Shown here one piece after another: positions 11,753 through 61,300 of a stretch of DNA of 64,000 nt. The stretch is taken from positions 1-64,000 of the forward strand of contig JARBJD010000051.1 in the NCBI GenBank assembly GCA_033064195.1, given 5' to 3'. Source of the stretch: Blattamonas nauphoetae. Taxonomy: Eukaryota > Preaxostyla > Oxymonadida. Every line of letters starts with the position of its first letter. Position 1 is the first letter of the stretch. The position numbers and the translations under genes were made by a program. Under the pieces are notes generated by a model. It searched no databases and had not been told where the DNA came from. It saw nothing but the letters and a program-made list of their open reading frames with translations.

Positions 11753-11759
11753 GGATAAG

Positions 11760-11781
11760 TTATTTTTATGTCCAATAAATG
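11760..11781 (+). promoter_or_regulatory. T-rich/TAAATG start motif, integrase
   Basis: Plus strand TTATTTTTATG then CCAATAAATG at the integrase start. Confidence 0.4.
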
Positions 11782-35467: not shown

Positions 35468-36414
35468 TTTTACCATTTCTTGGTTGATTATCTGCTGTAT
35501 TTGGTCACTTATTTTGTGTATAGAGAATAAAAAAGGTCACAGGCGTGAAGCTATTGTCAACAAACAGAGATTAGGATCCTTTCACTTTTCTATGGTTACA
35601 ACAATCGCTTGATGTTGAATAGAAAACAGAATTAAATGGATCATTGAAGTGATAGAAAGTAACTGAATCAAACTGAGATGGAAAAGTCATTCTTGAATGC
35701 CAGAATTGTCATGTCAGGTTCTGACGTGTTCTGTTTCTTTCTTGAAAATCAACGAGTAGATAGCGGGGATGAAAGGAAAGGAGTTGATCCAAAGAATTGG
35801 AGAGGAGATAAGTTCCGAGTTAGCTTCAGGCGAAATTACGATAAAATTGGAGTGGTTCGGAATGGATTCTCAAAGAATGGCTACAATTAATCAGAATGCT
35901 AGTTGGGAGGAACAGAATGGATGGGAGTGGACGATGAAGCTTTGGAAGCTTCTGAAATGAGTTTGGAGGGATGAGATGGAAGGAGCAGACGAGGGTTGAG
36001 AGGAGTTGAGTGGAGAGTTCGGTCAACACGAAACAAAAGGAGGAAGGAAGATCAAATAGCTCGCAGGATCAAACAAAGAAATCAAGATGAAATGTGAAAA
36101 TCTCAATGAAATGATGCAAATAATATATGAGCGTGGAAAAAAATCAAATTTTACTGAATTCAGATTTAGTTGTTGAGTACACATAAGAAAGGTGAATTTA
36201 TAGATTTCAAGCCTGATCGCGCATGAAATGGCCTTTCTAAGATCAGCACATTTTTGCACACTTTTTATTGCAAAACAAGTTCAAAGACAGGGAAAGGATG
36301 GAAAACAACAAAAAAAGAGGTCTCTATGTGAAACAATGGACAAAATACATCCATTAAAGAGAAAAATTGAAAAAACGTGAGATTTCAGAGTTGATCGTGA
36401 CAACTTCTATGTTT
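35468..36414. other. Gene-poor region with a block shared with 50850-50945
   Basis: Short open stretches near 35769-35960 lack domains. At about 36255-36345 the string TGCACACTTTTTAT, then AACAAGTTCAAA and GATGGAAAAC, recurs at about 50852-50945 inside element B, both times next to a similar minus-strand helical fragment. It looks like a shared 3' gene end or untranslated region. Confidence 0.5.
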
Positions 36415-36600: not shown

Positions 36601-37039
36601 TCACACAAAGCGAGCTGATTTGGTTGGTTTTCGAAAATGTTTGTTGATGTGATGCGTATTTCATTCATGGTTGAGAAAATCGATCAATCAGGTCGAAGCG
36701 AGGGACGAACAAAGTGGAGAGTGAAGGGTGGTTTGATTAGAATGATGTGAGAGCGACGGAGACAGGCAAGTGATAGTGAGAAGACCGCAGTTTGTGTTCT
36801 GATCTTGAAGTGTGATTCGAGGGGAGAGTGATGACAATGTTGAGAAGGCAGTGAAGTTTTGTGCGGGTGCAGGATCGTCATGACAGTCAATGAAGGAGGC
36901 TTGTTTGATTGGTGAAGTGTGAGGTGGTCAGGGCGGCGGAGGAGTGACGGTGAATAGACGAGTATGGGATGGGAGAGTTGCATCAAAGAACAGTTCGAAA
37001 AAGAAGAGGGATGAATTAGATAGACGGCAGGAGGACGAT

Positions 37040-39384: not shown

Positions 39385-39873
39385 TTACAATTCTATCTTC
39401 GTTTCTTCGTTCATCTGTCCAGTCATTGCTGCTTCTGTCCCAACATCCACTTTCAAAGAGCATCTCGAGAATCGCGATGATGAACGACCAACAATCGGAA
39501 GTGTCTTTGCTCCAACAATCAGCGCTCCCACAACTCCTCCAGACACCACCCTCCTCTTCTCATTCACAAACGGAACTCCATTCAAATGCTCGAATGGAAT
39601 CCCACTCATACGAGTCTCTTCCATCCAACATCTCTCAAACCACACTTTGAACACCCCCGACGACACCACCACAACCACTCCCCCTCCCTCGCTCCCAAAC
39701 GGTACACTGTCGATGAGCAGACATTCCTCAAAACGGACACTCCCTCCTCCGACCCTCCCCACTCCCACAAACAGCACTCCTCCAATTTCAGCTCCATCCA
39801 ACAATCTCTTCGTCTTGCTTCCTCCTTCCTCATCTCCCAATCTGTCTCCACTCTCCTCTCGTGTCGTCTCCAA
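39385..39873 (-). pseudogene. Pmp-like gene, 3' fragment beyond the 62-bp array
   Basis: The minus-strand frame reads out of the last 62-bp unit (ETTREESGDRLGDEEGGSKT) into beta-helix sequence: GGVLFVGVGRVGGGSVRFEE, RMSGIPFEHLNGVPF and GGVVGALIVGAKTLPIVGRS. It is the continuation of the gene at 40808-45818. It ends NEETKIEL with a stop only a few bases from the 27-bp array, so the natural C terminus seems lost. It is separated from the main body by the minisatellite. Confidence 0.7.
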
Positions 39874-40930
39874 AACATCACTCCTCCTTCCTCATCTCCC
39901 AATCTGTCTCCACTCTCCTCTCGTGTCGTCTCCAAAACATCACTCCTCCTTCCTCATCTCCCAATCTGTCTCCACTCTCCTCTCGTGTCGTCTCCAAAAC
40001 ATCACTCCTCCTTCCTCATCTCCCAATCTGTCTCCACTCTCCTCTCGTGTCGTCTCCAAAACATCACTCCTCCTTCCTCATCTCCCAATCTGTCTCCACT
40101 CTCCTCTCGTGTCGTCTCCAAAACATCACTCCTCCTTCCTCATCTCCCAATCTGTCTCCACTCTCCTCTCGTGTCGTCTCCAAAACATCACTCCTCCTTC
40201 CTCATCTCCCAATCTGTCTCCACTCTCCTCTCGTGTCGTCTCCAAAACATCACTCCTCCTTCCTCATCTCCCAATCTGTCTCCACTCTCCTCTCGTGTCG
40301 TCTCCAAAACATCACTCCTCCTTCCTCATCTCCCAATCTGTCTCCACTCTCCTCTCGTGTCGTCTCCAAAACATCACTCCTCCTTCCTCATCTCCCAATC
40401 TGTCTCCACTCTCCTCTCGTGTCGTCTCCAAAACATCACTCCTCCTTCCTCATCTCCCAATCTGTCTCCACTCTCCTCTCGTGTCGTCTCCAAAACATCA
40501 CTCCTCCTTCCTCATCTCCCAATCTGTCTCCACTCTCCTCTCGTGTCGTCTCCAAAACATCACTCCTCCTTCCTCATCTCCCAATCTGTCTCCACTCTCC
40601 TCTCGTGTCGTCTCCAAAACATCACTCCTCCTTCCTCATCTCCCAATCTGTCTCTATTCTCCTCTCGTGTCGTCTCCAAAACATCACTCCTCCTTCCTCA
40701 TCTCCCAATCTGTCTCCACTCTCCTCTCGTGTCGTCTCCAAAACATCACTCCTCCTTCCTCATCTCCCAATCTGTCTCCACTCTCCTCTCGTGTCGTCTC
40801 CAAAACATCACTCCTCCTTCCTCATCTCCCAATCTGTCTCCACTCTCCTCTCGTGTCGTCTCCAAAACATCACTCCTCCTTCCTCATCTCCCAATCTGTC
40901 TCCACTCTCCTCTCGTGTCGTCTCCAAAAG
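39821..40930. repeat. 62-bp minisatellite, about 18 units, within a Pmp gene
   Basis: The unit contains CTCCTTCCTCATCTCCCAAT, then CTGTCTCCACTCTCCTCTCG, then TGTCGTCTCCAAAACATCAC. The landmark GTGTCGTCTCC recurs at exact 62-base steps from 39861 to 40915 (17 steps). Units are nearly identical; one near 40650 has CTCTATTCTC. A 62-base unit shifts frame each time, and on the minus strand the coding frame meets a TGA after about two units. Both flanks are coding in the same Pmp gene, so the array is an expansion of a once single-copy coding segment. Confidence 0.95.
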
Positions 40931-43900
40931 AATAACCTTCTCCATCTTCACCTCCGATTCTTCCTCCCCACAACTAAACGAAATCAGAGGCGCGTTCAGT
41001 GTTTGCACTCTTCGAGTCTTCATCGAGCACAAAGAAAGACTCGCCACTTTCTTCTCACTCCGAACCTCCACAAAGCGAACTCCATCCCCAAACTCTATCC
41101 CTTCCATCGAAATCGACGCAAGAGTAGCTGACCCCCACCACAGCCCAACCAGTCCCATCCCCACTCGACCCATTCGCACACTTCCAACCACCACTCTCCC
41201 CACATTCACCTCTCCTCCGCCACAGATCAAGAAGCTCTTTCTCGCTCCCATTCCTCCATCTCCTCCCTCTCCCAAAAGAATCGTAACATCTTCAATCGAA
41301 GCTTGGCCTCCGTCAACTTCAATCGCATTCATCGACTCCCAACTCTCTCTCCACTCCACCAACACTCGTCCTCTTCCTTTCGAGCCTCCCCACACTCTGA
41401 TCTTCTTCTCTTCCACAAACACCACTCTACCTATCTCCACTTCTCTATCCACCTCCAACTCCACATTCCCTTCTGAGCTCACTTGTTGCATCAGTCCAGC
41501 CATCCATCCAACAAGAAGAGACGAGCACGGATTGCTCGGTTGCCCACACTTCTCCGCTTCCCCGCTTCCTCCCTTTCGACACATCACTGTCTTTCGCGGA
41601 ACCACAATTCGAATCCCTTCCTCCACCACACACCCACTCGACCCGTCGCTCATCCCGATCAGCGTGTATTCATTTCCAATCCCTAGTCCACCCTCATTCT
41701 CTGCCTCTCCCACTCTGAACTCCGCAACACTCAGCGTTGTGCTCTCAACTGTCATTGCATCAATCGATTCCCACACTTCTCCATTTCGAGTCAGACAGAC
41801 ACGACCAATGTTTCCATCCAACGCTCGTCCTTCAAGTTGAACTGTCAGTGTTTTTCCATCCACACTCAGCACGGACGACACACAGCGAATGATCCGAGCT
41901 GGCTCTGCTTCTGTTTCGAATGAGAGAGAAGGATCAAACAGAATCTCGCCATCATCCTCATCCAATCCAACAATCGACGAGATTGTGTAGTTCGTCGAGA
42001 ATTGCAGAGAATCTGGCCATCCAATCCGAAGTTGCGAGGATTTCGCAATCTCTGCATCAATCACTCCAATCACGAAAGAGAGAGACGGAGAGAGTGTGAC
42101 TCGGAAGTCTTTCCCAACTGGCAGGTCTGATCCAACAAACGAAACTGAGCACGATGTCAGAAGAGAGTTGGTGAAAGCGAACGAAGCGGAGAGAAGACGA
42201 GGAGGGAACGGAATTCTCGTGTTGATTCCATCGTTCAGGAGGAATCCGACTGGTTCGCCAGTTTCGATGCTCACTGTGTATTCCTTCCCAAATTTCAATG
42301 ATTCCACACTTTCCGAACTCGAAACAATGAAATCTGCTAAACAGTGTGTCGAATCTGTTGCTGTGAGAGGCGAGACAGATGACCAGAATGTCGATCCATC
42401 TTTCAGCCAGATGAATCCCATCGCAGAATGAAGTGCTCGTCCTTCGAAGAAGAGTCGCACGACTGTTCTGTCTTTGTTCAGTTCGGCTTTCACACACTTT
42501 TCAATTCGGGTTGACTCTTTCGGAATCACAAATGAAATCATTTCGGTGTCGAACAGCAGCTCTGTCGAACCTCTTTCGAACGATGACAGAACATATGTCC
42601 TCTCAAACTCAAATTGAGAGTTTCTCTTCGAAATCTCTTTTTCAAAAGGATAAAGAACAGCCACGTGGGATTCAAGAACTCCATTCTCAGTTGTCGTCAG
42701 TTTCATCGTCTTCGAATGCGATGGTTCGTCTGGCGATCCACTCGATGTGAATGTTAGCGTGTATTCTGTCGATGGCAGCAGGGCACGAGAACTGAAAGAA
42801 AGTTCGATCGTCGAGTTCAGTGAAGTGCTCCCAAAGTTCGCGGCTGACACAGAAACAAGGCGTTCCGGTTTGACAGGAGTGGAGAACGAGCATTCCGCTG
42901 TTTCAATCAAGATCGACGCATTCGATCCAATTGCCATCCATGATGCCGAGTATGTGTGCCCAAACAGCAGCTTGGCTGAGGAGAGAGGATAGAGCGAGAG
43001 GGTGAAGACGTATGATGTCTCAGTCGTCGCGGTGAAACGAATCGTGCGTGTGTCGACGGTATTCGAAGACGAAGGTGATGACAAAGGAGTTCCACTCAGA
43101 GTCAGTGTGTATTCCTCTCCCACTTCAAGAGCTCGTGTCTCCACGGTCAGCGTTGTCCCATTCAGTCCGTCTTCATCTGAACTCATCACAGACACCAGAC
43201 GAGATGGTTCGGCACTGATCGTCACCGAACCTCCCTCAGACAGCAGATCTGTGCTTCCTCCTTGTTTTCGGAAGCTCTTCACATCCAATCTTTCCCCAAA
43301 TCCCAATTCTGCTCCCAAAACAGGATAAACAACTCCTGATCCTTCCCATTTCCCAGATCCTTCATTCATTTTCATCTCCACGGTGAATCGAGTCTTTCGT
43401 GACTCGCTCAGCTCCACAAGATAAATCTCATTCGAATTCAACGCTCGTCCGGACATCGAGAAAAGAACTCGCTTTCCTCCAGAATCCAGACCAACAATGG
43501 AGAATGAGACAAGTCGTGTTGGTTCAATATCAGTCTTGAATGTCAGTCCAGACGTGAACAGCACTGCATTGTTCGACGAGTCGGTCACATTCACCACTGT
43601 GTAGTTTGTGTCGTATTTCAGTTCAATCTCTGAGTCGATCAGCGAGAACAGCAATGCTGTCCCTTTTCCATTTGTTGAGGAGCTGAACGACACATTCATC
43701 TTTGCTGGTGTTTGTGTCGCTGTTTCGTTCAGATGCAGAGTGTATGTTTCTTCTGAAGACATCGCTCGCCCTTCCACAGCCACTTCTGCTTTCTTCGAAG
43801 AATCAGAAAGACGCGTGAATGACACACTCGTGACGCGCGATGGTTCGACAGGCGTTTCGAATGTGAGGGAGGATGTTGTAACGGTCTGTTTGCCATCCAA

Positions 43901-45818
43901 AGACACAACAGAACTCACTTCGTATTCTGTCCCATATTTCAGATCTGCTTCCGAAAATGGATACAGTTTGGCTGTCCATTCTGTCAATCTCGATTCTGAC
44001 GAAGGAAGAAGATCAACTGTGAGAGTCGATGGTTCTTCCACTCCCACTTCTGTCACCCTCACTTTGTAGACAGACGCCACAAATCCTGTTCCAACAAATC
44101 CAATCGTCATCGAGTCATTTCCATCCGTTTGATCGATTCCGGTCAGTGTTGCTGGTGGATAGGGAATGGAGAACGAAAATGATGTCGCCAAGAAGAGTTT
44201 CTGCGAATCACACAACACTTCAACAACTTCGTATTCCACTTCATATTTCAGTTTTGTCGAGTCTGTCGAGGAGAGTGGGCTTGTTCCTGTCAGCGAGCCA
44301 GATGAGAGAGAAAGCGAGATTGCGAAGTCATTGTTTTCTGAATCCTTCACTTTCATCGAATATGTTCCTGTTTTCAGAAAACATCCTGTCAGTTTGAACG
44401 AAGCTTCGCGTGTTCCTTCCAGTTTGGCGGAGACTGACAGAATCATCGTATCGATGGGCCAGCCAGGAATGCTGGCACTTCGGATTGTGTACGAAGTCGC
44501 TTCGGAGAGGATGGGGAGAACACCCTCCAATCCAATCGACACTTCGACTGTTCCTATCGACGATTTTGTGGCTGATGTCCCAAACGAGACGTGCACGAGA
44601 CGAGGAACACTCGATCCTTCCAACAGCACTCCCATCGTTCCCTTCACTTCTTTTGTTGTTCTGATCGTGATCGTTGCTGTGTCCTCTCCCATCGACACTT
44701 CGAACGAAGAAATGCCTGTCTTCTGCTCTTCTGTCAGTTGAGGAACAAGTGTGCTGTCTTGAACAGTGCCAGTGAGGAAATACACATTTGGCGAGCCAGA
44801 AGTGGAATCACAAAACTTGATCGTGTCCGAATTGGCGATTTCAGATGACACGCTCCGAAAGTAGATGTCTTTCGAAACCGGAAGACCTGTACACTTACAC
44901 TCCCTGAACTGGAGGAACGAGAGGTCGATTGATGGGAGATTGTACAGATAGAGAGTACCAGCTTCTACCGATGAAGAGCACAAAACAAACGCACAGTTGG
45001 AGAGAGTAAGTGACGAGTGGGAGAAATATGCAGCACCTCCATGTTGAGCAGTGCAAGATTCGAAGAAGCAACTGTCCAACGTGAATTGTGAGGAATACAA
45101 GCAACAGAAACCACCTCCGCAATTTCCGCTCAATTCAACCGTCTTGCACTGAGTGAAGGATGAGTTTGTGATCTCAACTGGATGTTTCGTTGAGGAGGAA
45201 TATCTGACAAAGACGGCTCCCCCATCGTCTTGTGAAGCGGTGACAGTGCATTTGTGGAAGAAACACTGGTCGATGGTGAAAGACGCTGAAGACTCAAAAA
45301 GACAGATCGCAGCGCCACCCAACAAAGGGTTGCCGAGAGATGCTGTCATTTCGTTGAAGGAGCAGAGAGTGTACGAGACGGATGCGATTGTTGAATCGGA
45401 CACAAGGGAGAATCTGTCGTTCTGGACGAACTCGGTGAACGATTCTGATTTTGCGGTTTCGGAGTTCCCTTCGCGAACGCACGAAAAGAACGAAGTGTTC
45501 ACACATCTCAAACTCCCTCCCAAATTCACATCCAACATTCCCGTCCCGCGGTCGTGGTTCGAGCTCAAATAAATCGAACTCCCAACAATTCGCTGAACAA
45601 CACTTCCAAATCCCTTCCCACTTTTCCCAAAATCACCAACTCCATCCAAACGGCTGCTCATGTTCACCAATGAGCAAAATTCCATCCCGGTCTCCATCCA
45701 TCCTACAGAAGCCGATCCAAAATCCCTATTCTCCTTCGAAGCCATCCCAAAAGAGAAGAGAGGGCCAGTTCCCATCCAAAGTGTCTGCGACTTCATCGAG
45801 ATCCCTGTTCCAACAACT
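40808..45818 (-). pseudogene. Pmp-like protein with Ig/FN3-like repeats, main body (split gene)
   Basis: Open from the edge of element A (45818) to a TGA inside the 62-bp array. The N-terminal third is beta helix (SFFSCVREGNSETAKS, FFHKCTVTASQDDGGAVFVR, CTAQHGGAAYFSHSSLTLSN). About residues 390-1400 hold eight or nine tandem beta-sandwich units of about 110 residues. Each opens with a PxRLVSVSF-like strand (EPSRVTSVSF, EPTRLVSFSI, EPSRLVSVMS, KPERLVSVSA, EPARIIRCVS), then VEGRAL..EEYTLTL, then a LKYGxEYxVSS strand. A second beta helix follows a CG..SNPCSSL linker. The 5' part lies at 53968-54551 beyond the nested insertion. Expected to be a secreted or surface protein; here broken by the insertion and by the array. 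Confidence 0.8.
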
Positions 45819-46371
45819 GTGCGAATCCACGATGACTTCGCACTATCCTCAAAAACGCACCAGATTGAGTCGTGACCAATAGAAGGAAGAGGAGATCACG
45901 CCTCATACCTTTCTTTTGCCATTTCATTCCTTGTTCGTTTCATTTCGCTCGCCCATTTCAGAAAATTGGTTTCGATTGCATCTTCTTTTGAGACCTTATC
46001 AATCGCAGAAAGTCAGTCTTCCACTAAGAAATATCAGATTATGTCACCTTCTCATCAAATATCTCACAAATTCAGCTCTCTCGTCGAATATTGGTTCGCG
46101 AGAAAAGGAAGTCCATTCTTTGATCCTGATCTCCAACAAGTAAACTAGTGATCAAACCAAACACCACATCATCGGTGTTGACAACTCATTTCACACATTT
46201 TTTCGGACAATACACTCCTCAAACCAATCCGGTCAAAATCAGGCGATTTCTATCTGGGCGATTCTGAATGAAAACTTGTTTTACACTAATGTGCGTCACC
46301 AAAAATTATTTTTTGCCCAATTATCGTTCACCTGTGTAATAGACAGAAAACAGGAAAATTAGTGGAATTAA

Positions 46372-49300
46372 TAGTGGTGTCACCAATCGGTGTCTTGTCA
46401 CCAATTGGTGCTTTTCTCTGAGACTATAGAGAATGTGGTGTGTATGAACTGTGTGAAGTGATAGAGTTAAAGAAGGCCTCCATCCAGAGAAAAACAAGAA
46501 ATACTGGTTGAGTGTCCAATTCATGGGTTAGATCATCCCTCGTTCTGGAAAAGAGGATAAATTAGAGATTATTCACTTCATATTTTGTTTCCTTCAACTT
46601 CTTTAACAAACATAAGACTTAAATTGACATGATTCGTTTTAGTTGATAAAATGAAATGAGAAGATGGGTAGATCGATCTTGATATGTTGAAGCCCTTCGA
46701 ATGAGGTCAGGAACGCCTGCTATTCAGCTCGACCCAACTCAACCAATGTCATCACACCCGCAAGTGACCCTGGAGTGGAGACATCTTCGGCTGTGACGAT
46801 CGACATCGTTTCTTTCTCATTCTTCCAGATCTTCCATCCTCAAGAGTCACTCACCCCATTGGGACCACAGTGTGCAATGTCTTTCCCATTCTCCCCATCC
46901 ACATCAATCTCTCGTCCTGTTGCAATTAGATACTCAAGCAGCGATGAGGACACTTCAGTCGAAGGATCATTCCCCGAAACGCTTCTGGATCGGTCGACGA
47001 GTCCACAGACGGGAAACGAGAGTGTACGATTTGTGTCGCGAAGGATGTTCCAGACACAAAGATCAGAGCCCCTCTCGGAACAACATTCGACGAGGCGGCA
47101 GGGAACGAGAGACCACTCAGGTTGAATTTCCAATCGGTCAGTTCGGTGTTGTTGGAGAGTGTGAGGGAGACGAGAGGAGCAGCTGATGCCGTGTATGAAA
47201 CGAGGGAGGTTGATATGACGGAGAGGGAATGAGTGCCAGACAGATCAATGGAGAAAAGCCCAGTTGACGATGAGGTGCTGATTCTCGTCTTAATGGAGGA
47301 TTTGATGGTCATGCTTCCGACGATGTTGAACAGAGCGTCGTTCAGAGTGGAAGCAGTTGCAGCTGATCTAAATGAACACGACTCGATCGACAGTGAACCA
47401 GTAGAGATAGAAATGAAGGAAGTTGATCTTTGGTCGGTTCCGAAGAGGATAGCGAGACTGGTCAGATGGAGTGTGTGATCGACCAAAACAGAAAAAGAGG
47501 CAGACGAGGCCGTGGTGATTGTTGCGATCCCGCTCTTCGATTTGATGGTCTGCTCGGTAAAAGAAGTCGAATGCGGTTTTGCAAGGCTGGTTGAACCTCC
47601 GACGAGTAATGTTGATTCTGTTCGCTTGAGAGACGAGAATCCTTTGTCCAACGTCTCACAAGGAAGCTGAGTGAGTCCACAATTGGCATGATCCTCTCCC
47701 TCTCCGTGGACAGACAGCGTGGTCTCTTGAATCGTGTGAGGAAACCCGAAGGAGAACATGCTTTCTGGAGAGTCAGTTCCGACCTGCCCAACAAACTCGT
47801 CCTTCTCGGCTTCTGTGAACAACCGTCCCTGTGGAGGCTCGATAGAACTTTTAAGAAGAGCGAATGGTGCTTGTTTGGATGTTGAATCGAGATCAGATGC
47901 CTCAACAAAGATGAGCGAGCCTGTTCCATTTGACGCGATCTCGTCGAATAGAGTGTCTATTGTGGATGAGAATGTCGTGCCGAGCGAGAGATGGATGACA
48001 GTGCCAAGAGAGGGATCGTTTGAAACGTGAACCGATGAGATTGTATGGTCATTCAGCTTAGTCAGAGTGTCTGAGCCGACATCACACGATGTCAGGGATA
48101 GGGTTCCAGTGGAGACGATGAAGAATGTTAGAACTGCACTGCTTGGAGAAAGGTGGAAGAGAAGCGAGTCGAAAGAGAGTGTCTGGCTGGCGCCATTCAT
48201 TGTGATGGATCCAACTCCAGACTGGACGATGACCTACTTCGTTGAAGGAGACGAGATTGAGGCTGATGAGGAGACAACAAGAGAGGAGGAAAGTGCCGTT
48301 GTTCCTGCGACCTCAATTGAATTCAGGAGTGCGTGAGAGAGAGCAGAAGCCACTGCAGGTTCCAGTGACGAACATCGAAGTCGATCAGATCCACATTTCG
48401 GGTGTTCACTTTGTTCTTTCTTTCCTGTTTCTCCCGCCACAATTTTCACTGTTGGGGCAAGGAGATGGTACATCAGTGATGTTTCGAACCATTTCTCATT
48501 CGACATCAGCGAACTGTCCCGCCCAACAAAGTCGAGGAGTGGCTGGTCGGGAGAGAAGGAGCCTTCCCAGAGTGTTCCCGACAAGATGGATGAGAGAGAC
48601 GAGGATGTCACAAGAATCAGCTTGGGTTGATCTGGGTCAGTTCGGACACAATCTGAGAACGAGGTGGAGAGAATGGAAGTTGGGTGTTCGCTCCTGATCT
48701 CCACCAGCGTGTGATTTGTCACAGAGAATGAATGGAAAGTTGCGGAAGAAATGAAGAGAGACGATGTGTCCGACGAGCACGAAATGAGAGGAGCGGAGAG
48801 TGTTGCTTGCAGTCGAGTCTTTCGTCTGGTTAAACGTGTAATCCACGATGGTGATTGGCTGACGAGTCGATTTGAGAAGAGGATGACCAAATTGTTCACA
48901 GCCAGGCGAGCTTCTTCTTTGATCGTGAACAGACTCGCTCCTTCTGCAATCGACGAGTCCACATCAACAATCGAGCGGAGTACATCTGCCGCCTCTTTCT
49001 TCGCCGCTGTCGTTCCTTTCACAGTGACGTCTTGATCTGCAATTTCAATGTCCTTCTCAGTGTACGTCATGTTCCACACAAACGTGATCGTCTGCGGATA
49101 GTGTGTATGATTCTTATACTTCTGCTTTAGATGACTCACTCCATATTTCAATGTCGCACAGTGGGTTCCTGTCCATTTGCACTTGTCGTTGTCTGTCCCA
49201 CTGTATCCTCCGAGAGGCAGCTGTCGACTCCCGTTCACTGAGATCGTTGGTGAGGGGAGGAAGAAGTTGATGAGCTCCATTTCTGTCGGATCGTTCAGTC

Positions 49301-50803
49301 CTTCGATCACGACTCGATATTCGTTGCTCATTGAGACACCTCCAAACGATGGGATCTGCGTAAGTGTCTTTCCTTCGAAGAGTGACGTACGCATGAAAAT
49401 AACTTGACCCTCCGAGTTCAATGTTGGCTACTCTACCGTTCTTTGACGAGCGGTTCGTGAATGACACGTGAGGGAAGGAGACAGTGGTGTTGATCGCATG
49501 AAGAACACTGCCATTCACGTCTGAATGAATGTTGGCATAGGCGCCATATCGAAGAGTGAATGAACCACCTCAAAAGTCATCGAGAGAGCATCCAACGAGT
49601 GTCAGATTCCCATTTCAAGACACAGTCAAACCAGACGAGTGAAGTGTTGTTGAGAAGGAAGCGTTCGTGAGAAATTCAATTCCAAACCCTTCAACGTTGG
49701 ACGAGATCGTCGTTTGCGGAACTTCAAATGATCCACTTCCAATGTTGATGAAGTTCGTCCCACTTCATGATTTCCAGAGTGCTGTGCTGAGTGATCCGCC
49801 ATGATTGCCATCTGAACAATCTCCGCTTTCCCCATCTTCCACAAAGAACACGTTGGTCGGTGGGATGAGAGCTGATGGAGATAGGAAGAGGATGTGCACC
49901 CAGACACAGTTTCGACTGGATGCAGTGTTTCGAGTTGACTGTTGACGTGACGACGCAGGATGAGACAGTTGGGAATAGTGACAGTGACGGATGGGGAAGG
50001 AGTCCGCAAAACTCGAAGCAGAGTGTGGAAAAAAAGATTGCCAGGAATATCGACTGACCTTGGTGGCAGGAGATTTTGTGAAAACAAGATATCCGTATGA
50101 AGCTAAATGCTCGTTCGCATGACACTTGTTGCTCCGTCGCGGTTGAGATAACAGTAAGGCCACAAAGTGATGTCTTGAATGCTGACAAGAAGTCATTTGG
50201 TAGCGGATTGCCTGATCAAGCAGCTGCGATCAATCTCTCAAAATATGATCTGGCTACCGTTCGAATAGGTGTGAGTGTCGGAGAGCTTGCAGCGATGCGG
50301 TTTTGTGTCACGGATCACAAGATTGAATGTTTTTTTGAGCTTGGAAGAGAATCTGAGTTATCCAGGTGAAGAGAACGTTGAACACAAGAACGATGTTTGA
50401 TCCGGTAGTTGAAGTATTGATGAAAAATGTTCGACGTAAAAGTTCAGAGAGAGGCGTGCTTAAATTTCAACTTTCAGAGATGGGAGAGATTGGTATCCCT
50501 TTATCTGACAAAATTGGGGAAATGACGAAGAATCGATGAGAATAGGATTCATAGTCGCCTTATGTTTGTTAAAGAAGTTGAAGGAAACAAAATATGAAGT
50601 GAATAATCTCTAATTTATCCTCTTTTCCAGAACGAGGGATGATCTAACCCATGAATTGGACACTCAACCAGTATTTCTTGTTTTTCTCTGGATGGAGGCC
50701 TTCTTTAACTCTATCACTTCACACAGTTCATACACACCACATTCTCTATAGTCTCAGAGAAAAGCACCAATTGGTGACAAGACACCGATTGGTGACACCA
50801 CTA
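46372..50803. mobile_element. Element C: 245-bp inverted ends carrying a decayed Pmp gene, TAA duplication
   Basis: 46372-46616 and 50559-50803 are inverted copies that read as identical. The termini are TAGTGGTGTCACCAATCGG, followed by a 12-base palindrome CACCAATTGGTG. TAA flanks both ends (46369-46371, 50804-50806). The 3.9-kb interior is largely a broken minus-strand copy of a Pmp-type gene. A 3-base TAA duplication is what PIF/Harbinger elements make, but no transposase is seen and the ends do not prove that family. Confidence 0.8.
46840..50196 (-). pseudogene. Decayed Pmp-like gene copy inside element C
   Basis: The minus-strand translation matches the middle of the plus-strand gene at 55323. 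Shared blocks include IPSFGGVSMSNEYRVVIEG / IPTFGGISMSDEFRVEIAD, CKWTGTHCATLKYGVSHLKQ, FVWNMTYTEKDIEIADQDVT, EKDEFVGQVGTDSPESMF and CGLTQLPCETLDKGFSSL. The matched part corresponds to about 57250-61630 of that gene. It is interrupted by a frame change near 48220, in-frame stops near 49572 and 49614, and further frame changes toward 50196 and near 46930. It has no signal peptide or C terminus. It is a dead partial copy carried between the inverted ends of element C. Confidence 0.8.
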
Positions 50804-50963
50804 TAAAGTTCGATCGCGTTCGATATCGTCATTTTTTGTTGAAGACAATTGTGCACACTTTTTATCACAGAACAAGTTCAAAAAGAGATAAATGATGGAA
50901 AACGAAGGAAAAAGCTCATTCTGTGTGAAAGAACCAACACAAGGTCATCTATTGGAGAAAAAG

Positions 50964-51158
50964 TCACAAACTGTTCGAGGAGACATATTCAACAGACTTG
51001 ATAAGATTAGTCTTGGAAATTTCAGAAAGTATCCGGACGATGCGGTTTGTGATAAATTGTGAAGGAAAAACGAGCATGAGAGGAACTGTAGCAGTGGGAG
51101 GAAGATCGAAAAGAGTGAATCGAATTTGACGGTTTACAACGAGAAATTGCTGAAACAA
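50964..51158 (-). pseudogene. Helical-repeat gene fragment in element B
   Basis: Sixty-four residues with SQFITNRIVRILSEISKTNL near the end; it resembles the fragment at 36415-36600, and the following DNA (50850-50945) resembles 36255-36345. Probably a captured or ancient 3' gene end. Confidence 0.35.
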
Positions 51159-51551
51159 AAGGAGAAATAGAGCGAAAACAGTCCAAAACGTTCAATCATG
51201 CGATTCTTGAGAGATCCTTATGGCTCCTGAGATTTGATTTGCGACGAGACAAAAAAGTGCTGAGTTTCAGCACATGAGAACAAAAAACAATACATACAGT
51301 CTGATCTACATCCAAAACGCTGGTTGAGACGGGTCGGATCATCTAGATTCATAATCAAATAAAGTTGGATGGTGAGAAGGAGCCTGAACTTTGAATCGGA
51401 AAGATATCACGCGAGAATGAAGAAAAGTTGAATATCAAACCTTTATGATGTCGATAGTGGCTGGACCTGTGAACTGGGAGGATTTCTGGGAGATCTTCAA
51501 CTTCAAGACGAAAGGGAGACGCATGCAAGTTTTGATTTAGAATCGCCCATC

Positions 51552-53528
51552 TTCAATCTCATCCAAAGGACATGGTCAATCAAACAATCGCACAAATCTT
51601 ATCTGTTTTCAGGAATCGTCTCCCAACCTATGCCATTCTGAGTCAATCGCAAAAGAAACAGACTCCAATCGACAGTTCACTGCGATTCGCTTTTAGACGG
51701 AACCAGACATATTTATCCAACTTGGTCGTGTTTGATCCCTTTTTATCAACATTTTCAGACATGACAATAGTCAGTCGCCATTCAGTTCCCGTGTTTGCTT
51801 CGAACCAACTTCTGAAGTCGACCATATCCTTTGCGAGAATAAACTCGGGACGTTATATCACTAAAAACAAGAACAGAGTCGAATAAGATTCTTTTGAATG
51901 ACACACGAGACATTGGGAAGTCATTTTCTGCGATCTGATCACAATGTCGGATATCACCGTGTTTTGGTTGTTTGTCCTTCAAGCTCCAGTTTCAGCATCA
52001 AAACATTCACTGTCTGATAATTTCCAGTTCAACAAAACAGAAACCTTACATGTTCGTAGATAATGACGACAGAAGAAAGTTGTGACCGTTTATCACTCTA
52101 GAGCTCGTTAGAAGAGAAATTTAGATGCGTCGTATGATCTCACTTCTTATTTGGTTTTGTTATCTGATTTATTTCAAAAAATTCGAAAGTGTGTAGTCAT
52201 CGTGGATTCGCACAGTTCAGCAATCGCGTTGTTTCAGATGCAATCTGGGGATGGTTCGATGACAACAAAGTATATATCCCATCAATAAATTCCTGACAGG
52301 TATGACCATTTGAGCTGCAGAGATCCTGCACAAATGCGGCGACGTTGATCGATTTAACTTTCTTCTCTTCATCATTTTCCACCTCATTAACTCGATTTTT
52401 CATTGAAATTAATTTTGTGAATGCGGTTCGAGTTTACACCCAAAGTTCCATTTCGCTCAATCGTTGTCTCTCTAATCAAATCTACTCCATGCACTTTCTT
52501 CATGCATTCGACATCTCTTCTTCATCTCTCTTCCTTGGCACCCTTCAACTTCCCGTTAGGCATCAATCTATGGTACAATTCTTGGAAGAAATTACCCCGT
52601 CTGGCCCTGGGACAACAACCCGTTTCTATGAATTGGTGGAATCTCTGAAGAAAGAAGTCTATCTCACTGAAGATCTTGTGCGACAGCTCTCTTCATTGCT
52701 GGAAGATTTCAAACCATCGAACCAATCTGCGATCAACGTCGCCGCATTTGTGCAGGATCTCTGCAGCTCAAATGGTCATACCTGTCAGGAATTTATTGAT
52801 GGGATATATACTTTGTTGTCATCGAACCATCCCCAGATTGCATCTGAAACAACGCGATTGCTGAACTGTGCGAATCCACGATGACTACACACTTTCGAAT
52901 TTTTTGAAATAAATCAGACAACAAAACCAAATAAGAAGTGAGATCATACGACGCATCTAAATTTCTCTTCTAACGAGCTCTATAGTGATAAACGGTCACA
53001 ACTTTCTTCTGTCGTCATTATCTACGAACATGTGAGGTTTCTGTTTTGTTGAACTGGAAATTATCAGACAGTGAATGTTTTGATGCTGAAACTGGAGCTT
53101 GAAGGACAAACAACCAAAACACGGTGATATCCGACATTGTGATCAGATCGCAGAAAATGACTTCCCAATGTCTCGTGTGTCATTCAAAAGAATCTTATTC
53201 GACTCTGTTCTTGTTTTTAGTGATATAACGTCCCGAGTTTATTCTCGCAAAGGATATGGTCGACTTCAGAAGTTGGTTCGAAGCAAACACGGGAACTGAA
53301 TGGCGACTGACTATTGTCATGTCTGAAAATGTTGATAAAAAGGGATCAAACACGACCAAGTTGGATAAATATGTCTGGTTCCGTCTAAATGCGAATCGCA
53401 GTGAACTGTCGATTGGAGTCTGTTTCTTTGTGATTGACTCAGAATGGCATAGGTTGGGAGACGATTCCTGAAAACAGATAAGATTTGTGCGATTGTTTGA
53501 TTGACCATGTCCTTTGGATGAGATTGAA
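51552..53528. repeat. Large palindrome: two 0.8-kb arms around a 379-bp loop
   Basis: 51552-52350 and 52730-53528 are inverted copies that differ by eye at only scattered bases. This is the uninterrupted part of the element A arms. The inner about 137 bases of each arm (52214-52350, 52730-52867) are armadillo-gene sequence, so the inverted duplication included captured host DNA. Confidence 0.9.
52345..52884 (+). pseudogene. Armadillo-like gene fragment captured in the loop of element A
   Basis: Reads TTTRFYELVESLKKEVYLTE, LVRQLSSLLEDFKPSNQSAI and TCQEFIDGIYTLLSSNHPQI. These align with TRFESLVHFVKGGD, ISNLTPGF and GFIEHFIHLLTCSNPDIASV of the gene at 31051-32208. The frame ends inside the inner terminal motif of element A (NCANPR, stop), so the host gene was cut there. 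The same 3' part occurs inverted at 52197-52350. It covers only one or two repeats. Confidence 0.65.
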
Positions 53529-53967
53529 GATAGAAATCGCCTGATTTTGACCGGATTGGTTTGAGGAGTGTATTGTCCGAAAAATGTGTGAAATGAGTTG
53601 TCAACACCGATGATGTGGTGTTTGGTTTGATCACTAGTTTACTTGTTGGAGATCAGGATAAAAGAATGGACTTCCTTTTCTTGCGAACCAATATTCGACG
53701 AGAGAGCTGAATTTGTGAGATATTTGATGAGAATGTGACATAATCTGATATTTATTAGTGGAAGACTGACTTTCTGCGATTGATAAGGTCTCAAAAGAAG
53801 ATGCAATCGAAACCAATTTTCTGAAATGGGCGAGCGAAATGAAACGAACAAGGAATGAAATGGCAAAAGAAAGGTATGAGACGTGATCTCCTCTTCCTTC
53901 TATTGGTCACGACTCAATCTGGTGTGTTTTTGAGGATAGTGCGAAGTCATCGTGGATTCGCACAACT

Positions 53968-54551
53968 GAAAGCGATTCGGGTCCTCCAATGTGTTCACTT
54001 TCATATTCAGATGCGGACATTTTGATATTATTTCGTGAATGCCCCACATCAACAAACGGAGCAACAAAATGTCGAGGCGATTCGTGAGTGCACTGCGAGA
54101 CCACAATCGAAGATGAAGATCCGCACATTCCGTCGCCAGAGCAGCGCATCAGCAATGGAGAGTGCAATCCATCCGAAATCACACTGCTCAGCCACAAATA
54201 CACTTTCGATGACGACACAATGCACAGTCCTGATTCTGTCGACATGCACAATGCTCGAACTCCTTCAATGCGAAACGAGCTGTTCCAAACCGAAAACATG
54301 AACTCCCGGCCGACAGATTCATCGTTCTTTTCGGAACTTCCTTCTTCCACATTGTATTCCAGAATCGTGTTGTTCCCAATCAATGAAACATCCGCAGATT
54401 CCACTTGGATCGTTCTGGAAATCATTTCTGCATTTGAAAGATGGATGGTTTCAATTCCATCGTTTTCAGCGTTCTTAAGTCTGCCTTCCAACGCATTTCG
54501 GTCCTCGAGGACTTGGTCCGATGTTCGGCACGAGTGGACTTTCTGGGCCAA
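53968..54551 (-). pseudogene. Pmp-like gene, 5' fragment beyond element A
   Basis: The minus-strand frame runs IETIHLSNAEMISRTIQVES, ADVSLIGNNTILEYNVEEGS, FSVWNSSFRIEGVRALCMST to HIGGPESLSV at the target site. It is the N-terminal part of the gene whose body resumes at 45818 with VGTGISMKSQTLWMGTGPLF; the codon phase is continuous across the AACT duplication. No signal peptide is visible at the 5' side, so a first exon or the start is missing or lies unrecognised in 54552-54780. Confidence 0.7.
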
Positions 54552-55322
54552 AGGTGATCGAGGGGTGTTGTGACTTTAGTGTTCAACTAGGCTATTCTCT
54601 CGTAATAATGTGACAGATAAAGTTGAAAATCCGTATTCGTTTTGAAATAGTGTGCATAGTGTCGAGATCGTCTCAGAGGATGTGATGATCATTCGATCAT
54701 GTTTGATGAGGTCGATCGGCGAACTATATCTCTTCATCTTTACGCTTTCTTGAATCATTTCAACATTATGACTGGTATTTTGAGATTTTTTTTCAAAACA
54801 TTGCGATTGATCATGATTTATCGTGAAGTGAAAGTGTATGGCAGTTCTCCCTTCAAGACACCAATTTTTAGGTAGTGAACGTGCGGCGCGTTTGGCCTAG
54901 CGGTAGCCAACCCTCTGTCGACTGTTGTGCTCGGGGTTCGACTCCCGCCGAGCACAACTTTTTGCCACTACTTAGAGTTTTTTGGCCCAGAAAGTCCACC
55001 CTTGCCCGATGTTCTGTGAACTTGTCCAGTGTGTACGCTCGTGATGGTGGTTATGAGAAATAGTACAATCATCTCAAGATTTTTAGATGAGGATGATCAA
55101 AGCCCATTAATCGGCTTTTTCTGGGTTCATCTTCACAACTTGAGAGATGCAAGTTCTTCTTCCCAAACCACCCAATTCCATGACACTCAATTTGACGTAT
55201 AGATCTCATGAACTAAGTGGTGTCCATTCCACTGATTTCCAGAATCATGGTAAGGGTAAGATCATCAACAATACATCTTCTTCTGCTTCCAGGATCCCTT
55301 CCAGATTTGTTTGGGAAGCAAC
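54552..55322. other. Divergent spacer between two Pmp-like genes
   Basis: Holds a tRNA-like Pol III gene (54881-54957). A possible short intron, GTAAGG...TTCCAG at about 55251-55292, lies in the leader of the plus-strand gene. A 19-base string TTTGGCCCAGAAAGTCCAC (from about 54979) recurs inverted at about 54533-54551, at the 5' edge of the minus-strand Pmp fragment. Confidence 0.5.
54881..54957 (+). tRNA. tRNA-like Pol III gene, identity uncertain
   Basis: An A-box match (TGGCCTAGCGG, about 54893-54903) and a perfect B box (GGTTCGACTCC, about 54934-54944) are correctly spaced, and a TTTTT run follows at 54959-54963 as a Pol III terminator. The T arm folds (CGGG/CCCG around GTTCGACT), but the acceptor and anticodon stems pair poorly. 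GTC (Asp) is only a possible anticodon. It may be a diverged tRNA, a tRNA pseudogene or a tRNA-derived small RNA gene. Confidence 0.5.
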
Positions 55323-58300
55323 ATGCCAACATTCATGAACCTCTTTGTTCTCCTTCCCTTCTGGGTTGTGTTCACCCACTCCAACGAGATTTCAACACAA
55401 CAAATTGAGCTCTCGTCAATCTTGTCGATGCACAGATATGACAATTCGCAACGTGTCATTCGGCTCGAGAACAAGCAGTACGGATGTGCGTCCCAACATT
55501 TTGAATCCGTTCAGCTCACACTGAAGGGAGAAACTGGGACATCAATCTCGAAATCAACAATCTGGCAACCGAACAAAGAGAGACCCATCTCAAGGGAAGT
55601 TTCTCGGAACATGAAGAACCAAAATTGCCTGTTTGATATTGTGAACTCAACACTATCGTTTGACACGCTGCTTTTCGACATGGAATCGTTTGAACAAACG
55701 AACCCAAATGTTGATCATGACATCTCTCCGACACTCTCCTCATTGTCACGATGTGCGATTGTGGAGGCTTCTTGTGTCTCGTTTTCGAGTTGTGTTCTCC
55801 GACTGGGCCAGCTCACTTCGCCGATTCTGATCCAACAAACAGCCAACCTCGCAACGGAGGCGTCGGTGACATTCGTTGGATGTGAAATGTGTTCATCTTC
55901 GGAAGCGATACCTGCATTTGCGGAAATACTGGATCGGAAGGGAGCCTCACAACCAACACACTCTTTCGTGACAATCTCGTCGTGCTCGTTCTCGTCATCG
56001 GCAATCCTCTCCAAAACGGGCATCGCTGCAGAAACAACCACCCCATCTCCGTTTTCGTGTCTTTCCACATCGATTGTCTCGTGTTCGTTTGTGAACGTGT
56101 CGTCGTGTGAACAGCCCGCCTTCCGCCAGCCTCGCCTTCGTCTGACCCAAATGTTGGTGGGAACTGAACTGAACCGCGTTGAGAACGGACTTTATGGAAC
56201 GGTGAGTGCATCGCTCTCGTCGTCGGCAGAGTTCAGGCTGAGAAACTCGACGTTGCTGGAATGTGAGAATTGTGGGATTGTCGGAAACGCGGATGATCCC
56301 ACCATCAAACACATCACCGACTCGCCCACATTGACCAGCGCAACTGGTGCATTCGTCTATGACGCTGAGTTCACGCACTACCATTTCTCAGACAACACGA
56401 TCACATCAAAAACGCAAACAAAACAATTCACAATCGTGAATATTAACCCACTTGCCGGGTGTGTGAGATTCACACGCACCACGTTCAACGTTAACTGCAC
56501 AAACAAGCATGTCTATTTGATGGACCTGCGAGGAAATCTGGACTCCCATCCTCGCCTCGTCATTGATTCTTCAAAAGTCTCATATGACAAAGCTAGCACT
56601 CTTACAGACCCCATGAATCAGATCATTACTTATTATTCTGTGACCACAGACATTTCCAACTCCGAATTCAACTCGATTGATGGGGCGTCGCGAACTCGGA
56701 CATTTCAAGCAGCGAGTTCAGTTCCCTTCATTCAAGTCTCCAACAGCAAGTTCTCTGCTCAGACCATTTCAGCAAGTGGTGCTGTGTTTTATAGCTCAAG
56801 CACGTCAAATTATGTTCTTCGTGTCTTCGACTCGCTTTTCGAAAACAACGAAGCGGGCACGACGGGAGGGTGTGTGTACACATATTATGCCGACCACGCT
56901 TTCCACAGATGCATCTTTCGGAAGAACACAGCCGCCACAAGAGGCGGCGCACTTTATTTCAATCAGCCGAACTTGCTTTTCTTCGAAGACACCCATTTCG
57001 ACGACAATCAGGCGATGGAATATTTGGAGAACATTGAAGAGTATGCTCATTACAGAGGAAACGACATTCACTTCAGTGCCACGTCATCAAATGCTTTACC
57101 AGCATCGAAAGCAATCGGATGCACGTCCACGACGAAATCAAACAAATTTGGGTATTTCTATTCAGTCCAGTACAATGGAGATGTTAGTTATCAGAACACG
57201 ATGTTACCCACTCCTTCCACAACCATCATCCCAACCTTGTTCGTCGAGACAGCCGGGACTGGAACAGACTGCGCGGAAGCGACGCCGTGTCCGACAATCA
57301 CTTCAGCTTTGACAGAAGTCACTGCTGGATTCACTCGAATCAACGTGGGAATGGGGACACACTCACACAGCAGCGAGACGATCACGAAATCGGTGCAGTT
57401 GTTGGGACGAGGATGGATGACCAACACGACCGCCTTCACGATTGTGGAAATGGGAGGAGTGTCCGTGGGAAACAATGGAAACCTGACACTCACCTCGCTT
57501 TCTCTGAAACCATCGACCAAATCCTCAATCATTTTGACACACTCGTCGTCGTCAGCATCGACCTTTGTTGTGAATGTGTGGATTGATGGGATCAGCGACC
57601 ACACCACTCATCTCTTCTCGTTCTCTTCAGGAAAAGCGACATTCCATCTGAGTCGATTCAACGCGATCAGTCTGACAGCGACTGCAGCGATCTCAGTGAC
57701 AGGGACAGCTTCTCTGGAGATGAACGAGGTGTGGTTCAGTCACGTGAAGACATCGAGCACGACTGGAGGAAGCTGTCTGGACGCTCAGACAAGCTCGTCG
57801 ATTTCGATTGTGACATCTGATGCAGCATATTGCTCTTCGTCTGGTCCAGCTGGAGCCTTCCATTTCACTCGCATGAACAATAACGTCCTCACCCTCACCA
57901 ACCTCCTCTTCACATCCAATAAAGCCTCAACGACTCTTCCATCAATTGGCAATGACATCGTTCTTGTCGGTTTCCCTTCCAACTTCCTCAACGTGACCAG
58001 CTCAGTGAAATCAATCAGCGAAAAGCCTCGTTGCCTCATCGACAACACCGTTGTCAACTTCCAAATACCAAATTGTGGATATTCTCAGTACGGAATCGAT
58101 CATCCCATGAACCACCGCTTCTACCTCGGTTTGAAAATCTCTCAGTTCGTCTCTCTCGCTAACACCATCCAAGAGCTGGCCGCTCCTGGCACACAGCCCG
58201 ACCTCCGAATTCAGAATGTTGATCCAATCAATATCACGCAGACAACCTTCCACGATCGAGAAATCCTGATTCGACTCCCCAAAATCCAACAAACGTCTAA

Positions 58301-61300
58301 CGACGTCAATGCTTTCTTCACCTTCTCCGATTCAGCAACAATTCGATTCAGACAGGGTTCCATCACCATCCCATCAGGGACCCTGACAACACCTTTCAAA
58401 GTTGTCTCATCTTCAGCTCTCTTCCAGATCGCTGACACTACAATATACTTCCCCCCAACTGTGAATTACCCACTTGTCCACAACATAAATGGAAAGATCT
58501 ATTTCGAAGGTGCATATATCAGATCGGCAGTATCGTTCGTAGGATGCTCTCTCGTCCACAGCTTCGGAGGGTATTTCCAAGCAACGCACTGGTCATATTT
58601 TGAGCTCCACTCAGACTCAAACGGAAGCTTTATCAATGCAAAGAACACGAGCATTGTATTATGCCGTGTGGAATTCAAGAATTGTTCGTCGAAGAACGGG
58701 GGAGTGGCATATGTTGAATTCCAAGACTCGCACTATTTCAAAGCATACGTTCTCCAATATCCAGACATGTTCAAGAACTGCTCAGCGACCGAAACAGACG
58801 AGAATGGTGTTCTGATTGGGAGAGGAGGTGCGCTGTACTTTTGTGGGACAACGACTTCTGCTCGACCAATCATTCTCAACACAGATTCTCTGAACCATGC
58901 TCGGTTTGAAGGGAACAAAGCTGCACAGGGGAACGACATCTTTGTGGAGTCGAGTCTGTTCTCTGGGAAGGAAGTGAAGGACATTCCGACGTTTGGGGGC
59001 ATTTCGATGAGCGACGAATTCCGAGTTGAGATTGCTGATCGACAAAGCACGGAAGAGAAAGAAGCGATTCATTTCTTCCTGCCAACACCGACAATCTCAG
59101 TGAATGGGAGTGTGAAGCTGCCTCTGGGTGGAACGAGTGGGACAGATGGGGACGACTGCAAATGGACAGGAACACACTGTGCGACGCTGAAATATGGAGT
59201 ACGTCATCTGAAGCAGAAGTTCAAGGATGGAACGCACTTCCCGCAGTCGATCACGTTTGTGTGGAACATGACGTACACAGAGAAGGATGTGGTGATTGAA
59301 GACCAGGACATCACCGTGAAAGGCACGAAGACAACAAACGAAGCGAAAGCAGATGTGCTTCGTTCGATTGTGGATGTGGACGCGTCGATGAACGAAGGAG
59401 GGTTTCTGTTCACGATCAAAGACAACGCCAGTCTTGTGGTTTCGAACTTGGACATTCGACCGATTGTGAAGTGTGGGCTGTTTGATGTGAAGGAGGATGG
59501 ACGCTCGCTGGAGTTGAACGACGTTGCTGTGATTTGCTCAACGGCTGAAGAATATGGCCATCCTCTGATCCGATCGACGCTGAAACCGATCCGAATTGTG
59601 AAGAGCACGTTCAACACGACGAAAGGGTCGAGTGGATGTGCGACGTTCTCTGCTCCTCTCGTCTCGTTCTCCTCACCCACATCGTCCTTCTTCATCACAT
59701 CCACGACCTTCTCTTCTCTTCAAGCGACATCGTCTGCTCTGATGGAGATCGACACAGATGGAGAGATTTCAGTTCTGTCGACGTCGTTCTCAGACTGTTC
59801 GAGTTCGCCAGAACGAAATGGGGAGCTGATCTTTGTGCGCACATCGGATCCTTCATCAGCGATCTCAGGTGAGCGATGGGAGGGGAGTTTCACTGCTCAG
59901 ACGTCTCCAAATTCGTTTTATGTGGAAACCCGAGATCTGGATTCCTCAGACGAATGGTTGTCGCTTCCTCTTCTTCTGTTTCTGATCTCACCGAGTGAAC
60001 GTGTATTTCTGGATTCGATTGCTCATTCGACGACTCACACGAACTGTGGCTCGACCTCCCTTGCTTGCTCTTCACTTGCCTCTGCTGTTGCCTCAGCGAA
60101 GACACACTCGATCGGAGAGATCAGCCTCAGAGTCAACGCTGAAGTCTCGACTCTTCTCTCGTTCTCTTCCTCAATCACAGTTCATCCACACTCAGATTCT
60201 CCTCTGGACATCACTCTGAAATCGGCAGCTCAAATTGAACAATCTTCGTCGCTCTCCACACTCTCCTTTGCGAATCTGCATTTCTCGATTGATTCGTCGT
60301 GTTCGGCCTCGCCTCTCTTCGTCGTGTTGTCAGGAACACTCCATCTCTCGTCGTGCCAAATCGGAGGTGATTCTGAAACAGTGCTGCCCTCTTCACTTGC
60401 CACTGTTGTTGAAGTCAGTGGAGCAGGATCTCTCACATTGACAAGCACGACATTCAGAAACCTGAAATTCACACACGCTTCAGGAAGTACGATCCATCTC
60501 GACTCGAAAACATCTTTCTCAGCCAACACGGGCAGCATCTTCGAAGGGATCTCTTCAACCGGAGTTGGTTCTCTTGTGTTCGTGAAGAGTGAAGATCTCT
60601 CAAAGACTTCGGCACTCGCTCCCTTCGCTCTTTTGAAGAAGACGATTGTTGTGCCGCAGGATGGTCAGTTCTCGCAGGTTGAGAAGAACAAGTTTGTTGG
60701 GCAAGTCGGAACATTGGGTCCCGAAAGCTTGTTGTTCTTCTGGTTTGCTCACACAGAACAAGAAACGAGTCTTTTCATCGATTCGGATGGAGAAGATCAC
60801 GTGCATTGTGGATTGAGCTTGCTTCCTTGCGAGACCCTTGACAGAGGATTGTTGAATGTGAAGAAAACAGGAACGGATGTCATGCTTGGAAGTTCTTCCA
60901 GCCTCACATCATCTCTCAAAACACGGTTTGCCTCACACACAATCATCTCGAAAAGTGAACAGAAAACGATCACCGTCGATCCATTAGGCTCACTCTCCGT
61001 GTTGGAAGATCACGAACTGAATCTGAACACCCTCTTGTTCGTGTTTGAGAGTGGTGATCGATCCTCTGTCTTCATTTCCGTTGCTTCTGGATCACTGTCG
61101 ATTGATTCGTGTTCGTTTGGGTCATCGTCTACGGAATCAACTTTGGATAAAGGATTTTTGGATGTTTGTGGGAGTTTGTCGCTCGTTTCGACATCGTTCA
61201 CAAAAGTCAGGTCATCGTCGCCGAAGGGAATCGTCTCTGTCGATCTTTCTGGTTCGCACACTCTCTCCACGTCAGCGACTACATTCACGTCGTGTTCATC

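Follow-up and report, generated by a model that had tools for sequence, protein, structure and literature searches.

The acquisition of host genes by DNA transposons is an open question, which has mostly been debated from degraded cases. In Pack-type transposons with terminal inverted repeats (Pack-TIR), the transposon is proposed to come to hold a host fragment by gap filling or by FoSTeST, where the template switch uses short homology and movement afterwards is optional (PMC8277862, in part). Composite insertions of maize Ac, or macrotransposons, carry element copies and flanking host DNA as a single insertion (PMC9910405, in part). In origin-dependent inverted-repeat amplification (ODIRA) and in the fold-back formation of tandem inverted duplications, short interrupted inverted repeats lead to strand switching and an inverted dimer (PMC4689423, in part), whereas Foldback, Galileo, and the Mutator-like elements (MULEs) with multiple long terminal inverted repeats are known for their long inverted arms, sometimes with gene pieces (for MULEs, PMC3310237, in part). 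Here we describe composite A, an insertion in the oxymonad Blattamonas nauphoetae (assembly of 88.3 Mb in 837 contigs), found within bases 1-64000 of contig C457 (335,681 bases), a stretch referred to below as the window.

A resembles each of these systems in some respect and departs from it in another. Contrary to Pack-TIR elements, whose filler lies within one element in the account cited, the host fragment of A lies between two full inverted copies of an element, E, and is itself a palindrome. The maize Ac insertions, as presented in the cited part of that source, arise by reversed-ends transposition and re-replication, with no fold-back centre. ODIRA is modelled without transposon ends and requires a replication origin, unlike A, which is bounded by E ends; and, unlike those of Foldback, Galileo, and MULEs, the arms of A are whole elements, mostly found alone. 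The mechanism we propose for A joins the logic of Pack-TIR gap filling or FoSTeST to the fold-back of ODIRA or of tandem inverted duplications. A composite of this kind is not named in the titles and abstract openings of the literature searched, no paper combining the species name with "transposable elements" was returned, and the main text of the genome paper (PMC10703272) contains no word starting with "transpos". We propose, with a probability of about 0.52, that A is a palindromic composite derived from template switching between two copies of E, a short non-autonomous DNA transposon.

Anatomy of composite A and of a second composite

Composite A and its parts, in window positions, are as follows.

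45815-45818: left target-site duplication of A, AACT (from the sequence, its partner AACT at 53964-53967, and the gene frame that is open once joined)
45819-53963: composite A, with AACT on either side
45819-46255, plus strand: E copy 1 (subfamily X), first part, E positions 1-437
51553-52213, plus strand: E copy 1 (subfamily X), second part, E positions 438-1098
52214-52351, minus strand: host arm, inverted copy, starting with AGTT (138/138 against the reverse complement of 52730-52867)
52352-52729, plus strand: palindrome loop, colinear with the host gene
52730-52867, plus strand: host arm, ending with AACT (loop and arm together 515/516 against the host gene on contig C346, BLNAU_6934)
52868-53963, minus strand: E copy 2, of subfamily Y and complete at 1,096 bp
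53964-53967: right target-site duplication of A, AACT (from the sequence and the joined gene frame)

A consists of two complete, oppositely oriented E copies around palindromic host DNA, and is not one long-armed element. The left copy is interrupted by a second insertion, B, beyond which the arm resumes at 51553-52213 and closes with the same terminus as at its start. The E unit measures 1,096-1,099 bp, starts with GTGCGAATCC, and ends with GGATTCGCAC. Its 19-base terminus, allowing up to 2 mismatches, matches the genome 65 + 63 = 128 times, 100 of which were listed, whereas the reversed control gives 0 matches. In a survey of 29 loci (L002-L030), 28 with both ends readable, the 4-bp flanks match in 25/28 and the left flank has the form ANNT in 28/28; two of the three mismatched loci are the arms of the second composite described below, where the inner flank differs as expected, and the third is L027 (AATT/AAAT). 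Identical flanks in L012 and L017, and in L007 and L028, indicate that a few E copies are duplicated loci. The identically flanked copies at C22:107370 and C22:120344, as well as L007 and L028, may represent segmental duplications or redundant contigs. With its 1.1 kb of non-coding sequence, inverted ends, fixed-length duplication, and many similar copies, E has the features of a miniature inverted-repeat transposable element (MITE).

Since the whole E element is found alone elsewhere with its own duplication, the arm of A is not a terminal repeat. The preliminary description of this DNA, right in supposing an oxymonad genome, had likened the nested layout to Pack-type gene capture with long foldback arms; for A, the single long-armed foldback element gives way to two inverted full copies. 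A Foldback element was discarded on the same ground, the arm existing alone with its own duplication and not only within one element, and so was a Polinton or a single element with long terminal inverted repeats, given the solo arms and the 4-bp duplication. A locus of 3.6 kb on C253 resembles, from its coordinates only, an E broken after position 72.

The target of A can be read as well. When A is excised in a script and one AACT is kept, a frame running on the minus strand for 1,872 codons is obtained, 202 of them preceding the junction, and 10/10 of the uninterrupted paralogs compared (from 115 proteins found) align over that junction, the three paralogs shown doing so with no gap over 300 residues at 85-86% identity.

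The 654 bp between the E copies form a palindrome with 138-bp arms, identical at 138/138 positions, and a loop of 378 nt. Positions 52342-52867 match C346:55987-56512 at 99%, and the frame at that locus is 100% identical to protein BLNAU_6934 across 61% of the protein length. The layers together had been described as carrying Pmp-like and armadillo-like gene pieces; that host gene pieces lie inside the layers holds, whereas for the centre of A a scan of the donor gene (a single 279-aa frame) gave no armadillo match, with one weak hit below the cut-off, and so did not confirm the armadillo-like assignment. At the switch point, ACGTTGATCG meets ACGTCGACCG, an imperfect inverted repeat with 8/10 bases alike, and as good a match occurs in 181/244,920 alternative donor switch pairs.

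The two E arms of A (L001 and L024) were aligned with each other and with 26 further loci out of 28, omitting L023, which has an insert of 0.5 kb, and L029, which has no right end. The arms are unlike in 13 columns of this alignment. For 13/13 of these columns, both states are present in other genomic copies and there are 0 private changes, and for this reason the arms look like two pre-existing copies of different subfamilies: the left arm is closest to L002-L004, with 4 differences, and the right arm is 1 substitution away from L014, L022, and L027.

A second composite with this architecture lies at C601:280084-283105, with two inverted E copies, ATCT on both outer sides, and a common host sequence at both inner ends. 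Its host arms are identical over the first 140 bases and agree in 170/183 over the full aligned stretch, and they match C46:189151-189313 at 97-98%. Its E arms carry 1 and 19 private changes, a split whose equal in unevenness would be expected about 4 times in 100,000 under equal ages (binomial). If the E differences post-dated the palindrome, host arms free of any change would have a probability of 0.25 for A and of 0.02 for this composite; the E arms thus look older than the identical host arms. This contrast in age argues against the plain snap-back of one element and is compatible with snap-back followed by conversion. Inserted in the loop of the second composite (L068) is a multi-copy sequence of 499 bp, which has the 8-bp flanks ATGGCAGA and the ends CAGACTTGT and is probably a hAT-like MITE to judge from the duplication length. 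An unpaired E terminus stands at C601:276546, 3.5 kb to the left of the composite. No further contig with two complete E copies less than 5 kb apart was found among the matches listed.

Proposed origin of A and competing explanations

According to the template-switch reading, which offers the most economical route, synthesis would begin in an E copy of subfamily X and switch by homology into a copy of subfamily Y residing in BLNAU_6934 or an allele of it. Synthesis would then overrun the end of Y into 138 bp of host DNA, change strand at a short inverted repeat with 378 nt between its halves, and return via the loop, the host arm, and copy Y, to give the order X, host arm, loop, host arm, Y. 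The product may have formed where it now lies, by gap repair at a resident E copy that was closed via the 19 bases common to both E ends, or it may have been built elsewhere and then mobilised by the E transposase via the two like ends. The outer duplication and the empty site of A fit transposition of the whole composite and growth on the spot alike. Later on, B inserted into copy X, and C into B. The anatomy, the empty sites, the two lineages of the arms, the donor gene, and the second composite are observed; what the polymerase did, in which order, and that the donor gene once contained an E, we infer.

Several points weigh against this reading. There is no E at the donor locus on C346, where the sequence runs uninterrupted through AACT, and none among the matches listed near C46:189313. 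The 10-base switch window was picked after inspection of the site, the switch from X to Y is unplaceable with no diagnostic site past position 1047 of 1098, and the counts of private changes vary with the copies sampled. A has AACT as its inner duplication as well as its outer one, which would be a coincidence of about 1 in 16, and the known composites are two only. Furthermore, under the main rival, gene conversion following a simple fold-back, the arms would look similar: one E plus its host flank would have snapped back into a perfect palindrome and moved as a macrotransposon by its like ends, one arm being converted later from another E copy. The solo copy L011 is a mosaic of both subfamilies, the old arm of the second composite, L030, has its closest relative in its partner L005 (29 differences, with at least 32 to the others), as expected from a common history, and the outer duplications AACT and ATCT are consistent with unit movement. 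However, the conversion tract would have to span nearly the whole E arm and yet spare the identical host arm, in both composites, and we regard this explanation as unlikely, even if it is the most serious of the four considered.

Less probable still is alternative transposition coupled to re-replication, on the model of maize Ac, where the E ends of different copies would be paired in S phase and the flanking host DNA re-replicated. Such composite insertions hold the element with flanking DNA and behave as macrotransposons (PMC9910405, in part), and the two arms of A likewise come from different E lineages; against it stand the missing fold-back centre in that account and the layout of the donor, where X and Y would not lie side by side, both adjoining the same host position in A. 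That three unrelated non-autonomous families inserted by chance, with nothing special about A, is very improbable: ordinary nesting holds for B in A and for C in B, with their clean duplications and empty sites, but the centre of A contradicts it, as the inverted, duplicated host arms between the E copies in A and on C601 are left unexplained. Fold-back reads are a recognised type of artefact. The assembly was indeed made from nanopore and Illumina reads (PMC10703272, in part), but an assembly or nanopore fold-back artefact is hardly credible here, as it would also mirror the outer flanks, which are in reality one gene in frame, and would give identical E arms instead of 13 lineage-specific differences, and the same build is found again on C601.

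The interest of A lies in that a single composite lets one read its donor gene (at 1 difference in 516), its point of fold-back, its empty target, and its two source lineages. With this readable case and another composite built alike in the genome, the template-switch model is therefore directly testable. The structure of A suggests how such elements can acquire host genes through copying errors. A more general and tentative proposal, doubtful on balance, is that E repeatedly turns host genes into mobile hairpin copies by switch, fold-back, and return, and that the composites may jump again; were this true, gene-specific inverted repeats could yield hairpin RNA against the parent family.

The nested layers B and C and the search for transposases

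The left arm of A contains B, which in turn contains C.

46252-46255: left target-site duplication of B, ATCT (single in uninterrupted E copies)
46256-51548, plus strand: B, MITE-like, GGGCGATTC...GAATCGCCC, 858 bp without the inserted C (from its repeats and genome copies)
46369-46371: left target-site duplication of C, TAA (from the sequence, the flanks of C copies, and the empty-site pattern)
46372-50803, minus strand: C, Pack-type element, 4,432 bp, with 245-bp terminal inverted repeats TAGTGGTGTCACC... and a decayed beta-helix-type gene on the minus strand
46849-49890, minus strand: putative captured host gene piece inside C, with broken frames and small deletions (from the C198 and C87 matches and the frames)
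50804-50806: right target-site duplication of C, TAA (from the sequence and the flanks of C copies)
51549-51552: right target-site duplication of B, ATCT (from the sequence and the E alignment)

This three-layer nest is genuine, each family having its own ends and its own duplication length, as first described. The inverted arms in the window agree at 98-100% identity over 245 to about 1,137 bp, a similarity that calls for no shuffle control. Of the flanks originally assigned, AACT for A and TAA for C stand, whereas the TC proposed for B is better read as ATCT, since uninterrupted solo E copies cross the insertion point with a single ATCT. The empty site of C is seen at 45 places in the genome, 33 of them exact, where the B sequence runs uninterrupted with TAA once. 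The nesting itself is ordinary for a transposon-rich genome, and what stands out is how A arose.

B has the traits of a MITE, being short (858 bp), non-coding, and present in many similar copies, with inverted ends and a duplication as read in the window; its target there, ATCT, fits the same ANNT kind as those of E. For its right part (737 bp), 31/40 scored rows are 100% identical, window included (40 of 238 candidates scored). A B-like fragment at 36248-36374 (73% identity) has a 27-bp minisatellite of about 86 copies nearby, at 37039-39375.

The flanks of C have the form TNA: of 12 copies examined, 10 have both ends intact, and their flanks match in 10/10. Two of these ten, C516 and C273, have identical flanks and probably represent a single insertion. 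The interior of C is found complete at 100% in five other loci and piecewise in further ones, at 97-100% in C70, C779, and C212 and mostly at 85-93% in C401, C273, and C516. The loci on C198 and C87, which would be host genes, match the interior only in query positions 210-2966 of 3901, with main pieces at 84-90% and short ones at 79-82%. C carries a captured and decayed gene, with broken frames in the window copy, and with its 245-bp terminal inverted repeats and its duplication around a host gene fragment it is a Pack-type family; this places Pack-type capture in an oxymonad. An intron loss in the captured gene was rejected, because the 204 bp absent here fall within a 512-aa open frame of the C212 copy, which indicates a deletion. 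PIF/Harbinger elements leave a 3-bp TWA duplication, and C was not assigned to them on that basis, TGA (TCA on the other strand) being seen besides TAA and TTA. In a group with 81% similar ends, the two loci read have only those ends in common with C.

No transposase was seen in A, B, or C, which agrees with the preliminary description, and many copies of the ends recur elsewhere in the genome, as it had anticipated; the autonomous relative that it had looked forward to did not turn up with the three transposase families searched. Genome profile searches gave 62 matches for PF13359 (DDE_Tnp_4) and 67 for PF00665 (rve), 1 over the cut-off. Among the matches listed, none of DDE_Tnp_4 or rve lies between paired E ends (B was not searched), and none of DDE_Tnp_4 lies at the C ends (40 of 234 candidate ends). 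PF13843 (piggyBac) gave 0 matches in the genome and 0 in the control genomes too, so that this result is uninformative. One PF13359 match is found 1.5 kb outside an unpaired E end, at C445:374502. An 8.7-kb E-ended locus on C69 (L085) was considered as an autonomous parent and set aside, its first 3 kb consisting of a 27-bp minisatellite beside an E end and showing no transposase by eye; this is a further 27-bp repeat array besides the one in the window. Several of the 62 DDE_Tnp_4 (Harbinger-type) matches lie in frames of equal 457-aa length, and about 12 other loci show a 430-aa frame with an rve match. In the window, open reading frames at 9122-16528 with DNA polymerase B and DUF5906 over the cut-off, and an rve integrase below it, suggest a Polinton/Maverick-like element.

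The gene interrupted by A

A lies within a beta-helix gene annotated as BLNAU_8120.

40808-45818, minus strand: downstream part of the interrupted gene (Pfam PF13229 over the cut-off, a 99% match, and paralogs)
53968-54575, minus strand: upstream part of BLNAU_8120, 202 codons ahead of the junction (joined frame and ten paralogs)

Many relatives of this gene have a kinase domain, and both C and the target of A hold genes of the beta-helix family. The open reading frame at 55260-63998 has no blastp match with the joined gene frame and, taken whole, no Pfam match; its first part gives a Chlam_PMP hint below the cut-off. A 62-bp repeat at 39820-40929, with about 18 copies matching at 99%, overlaps the beta-helix gene at its 3' end; as its unit length is not divisible by 3, every unit causes a frameshift.

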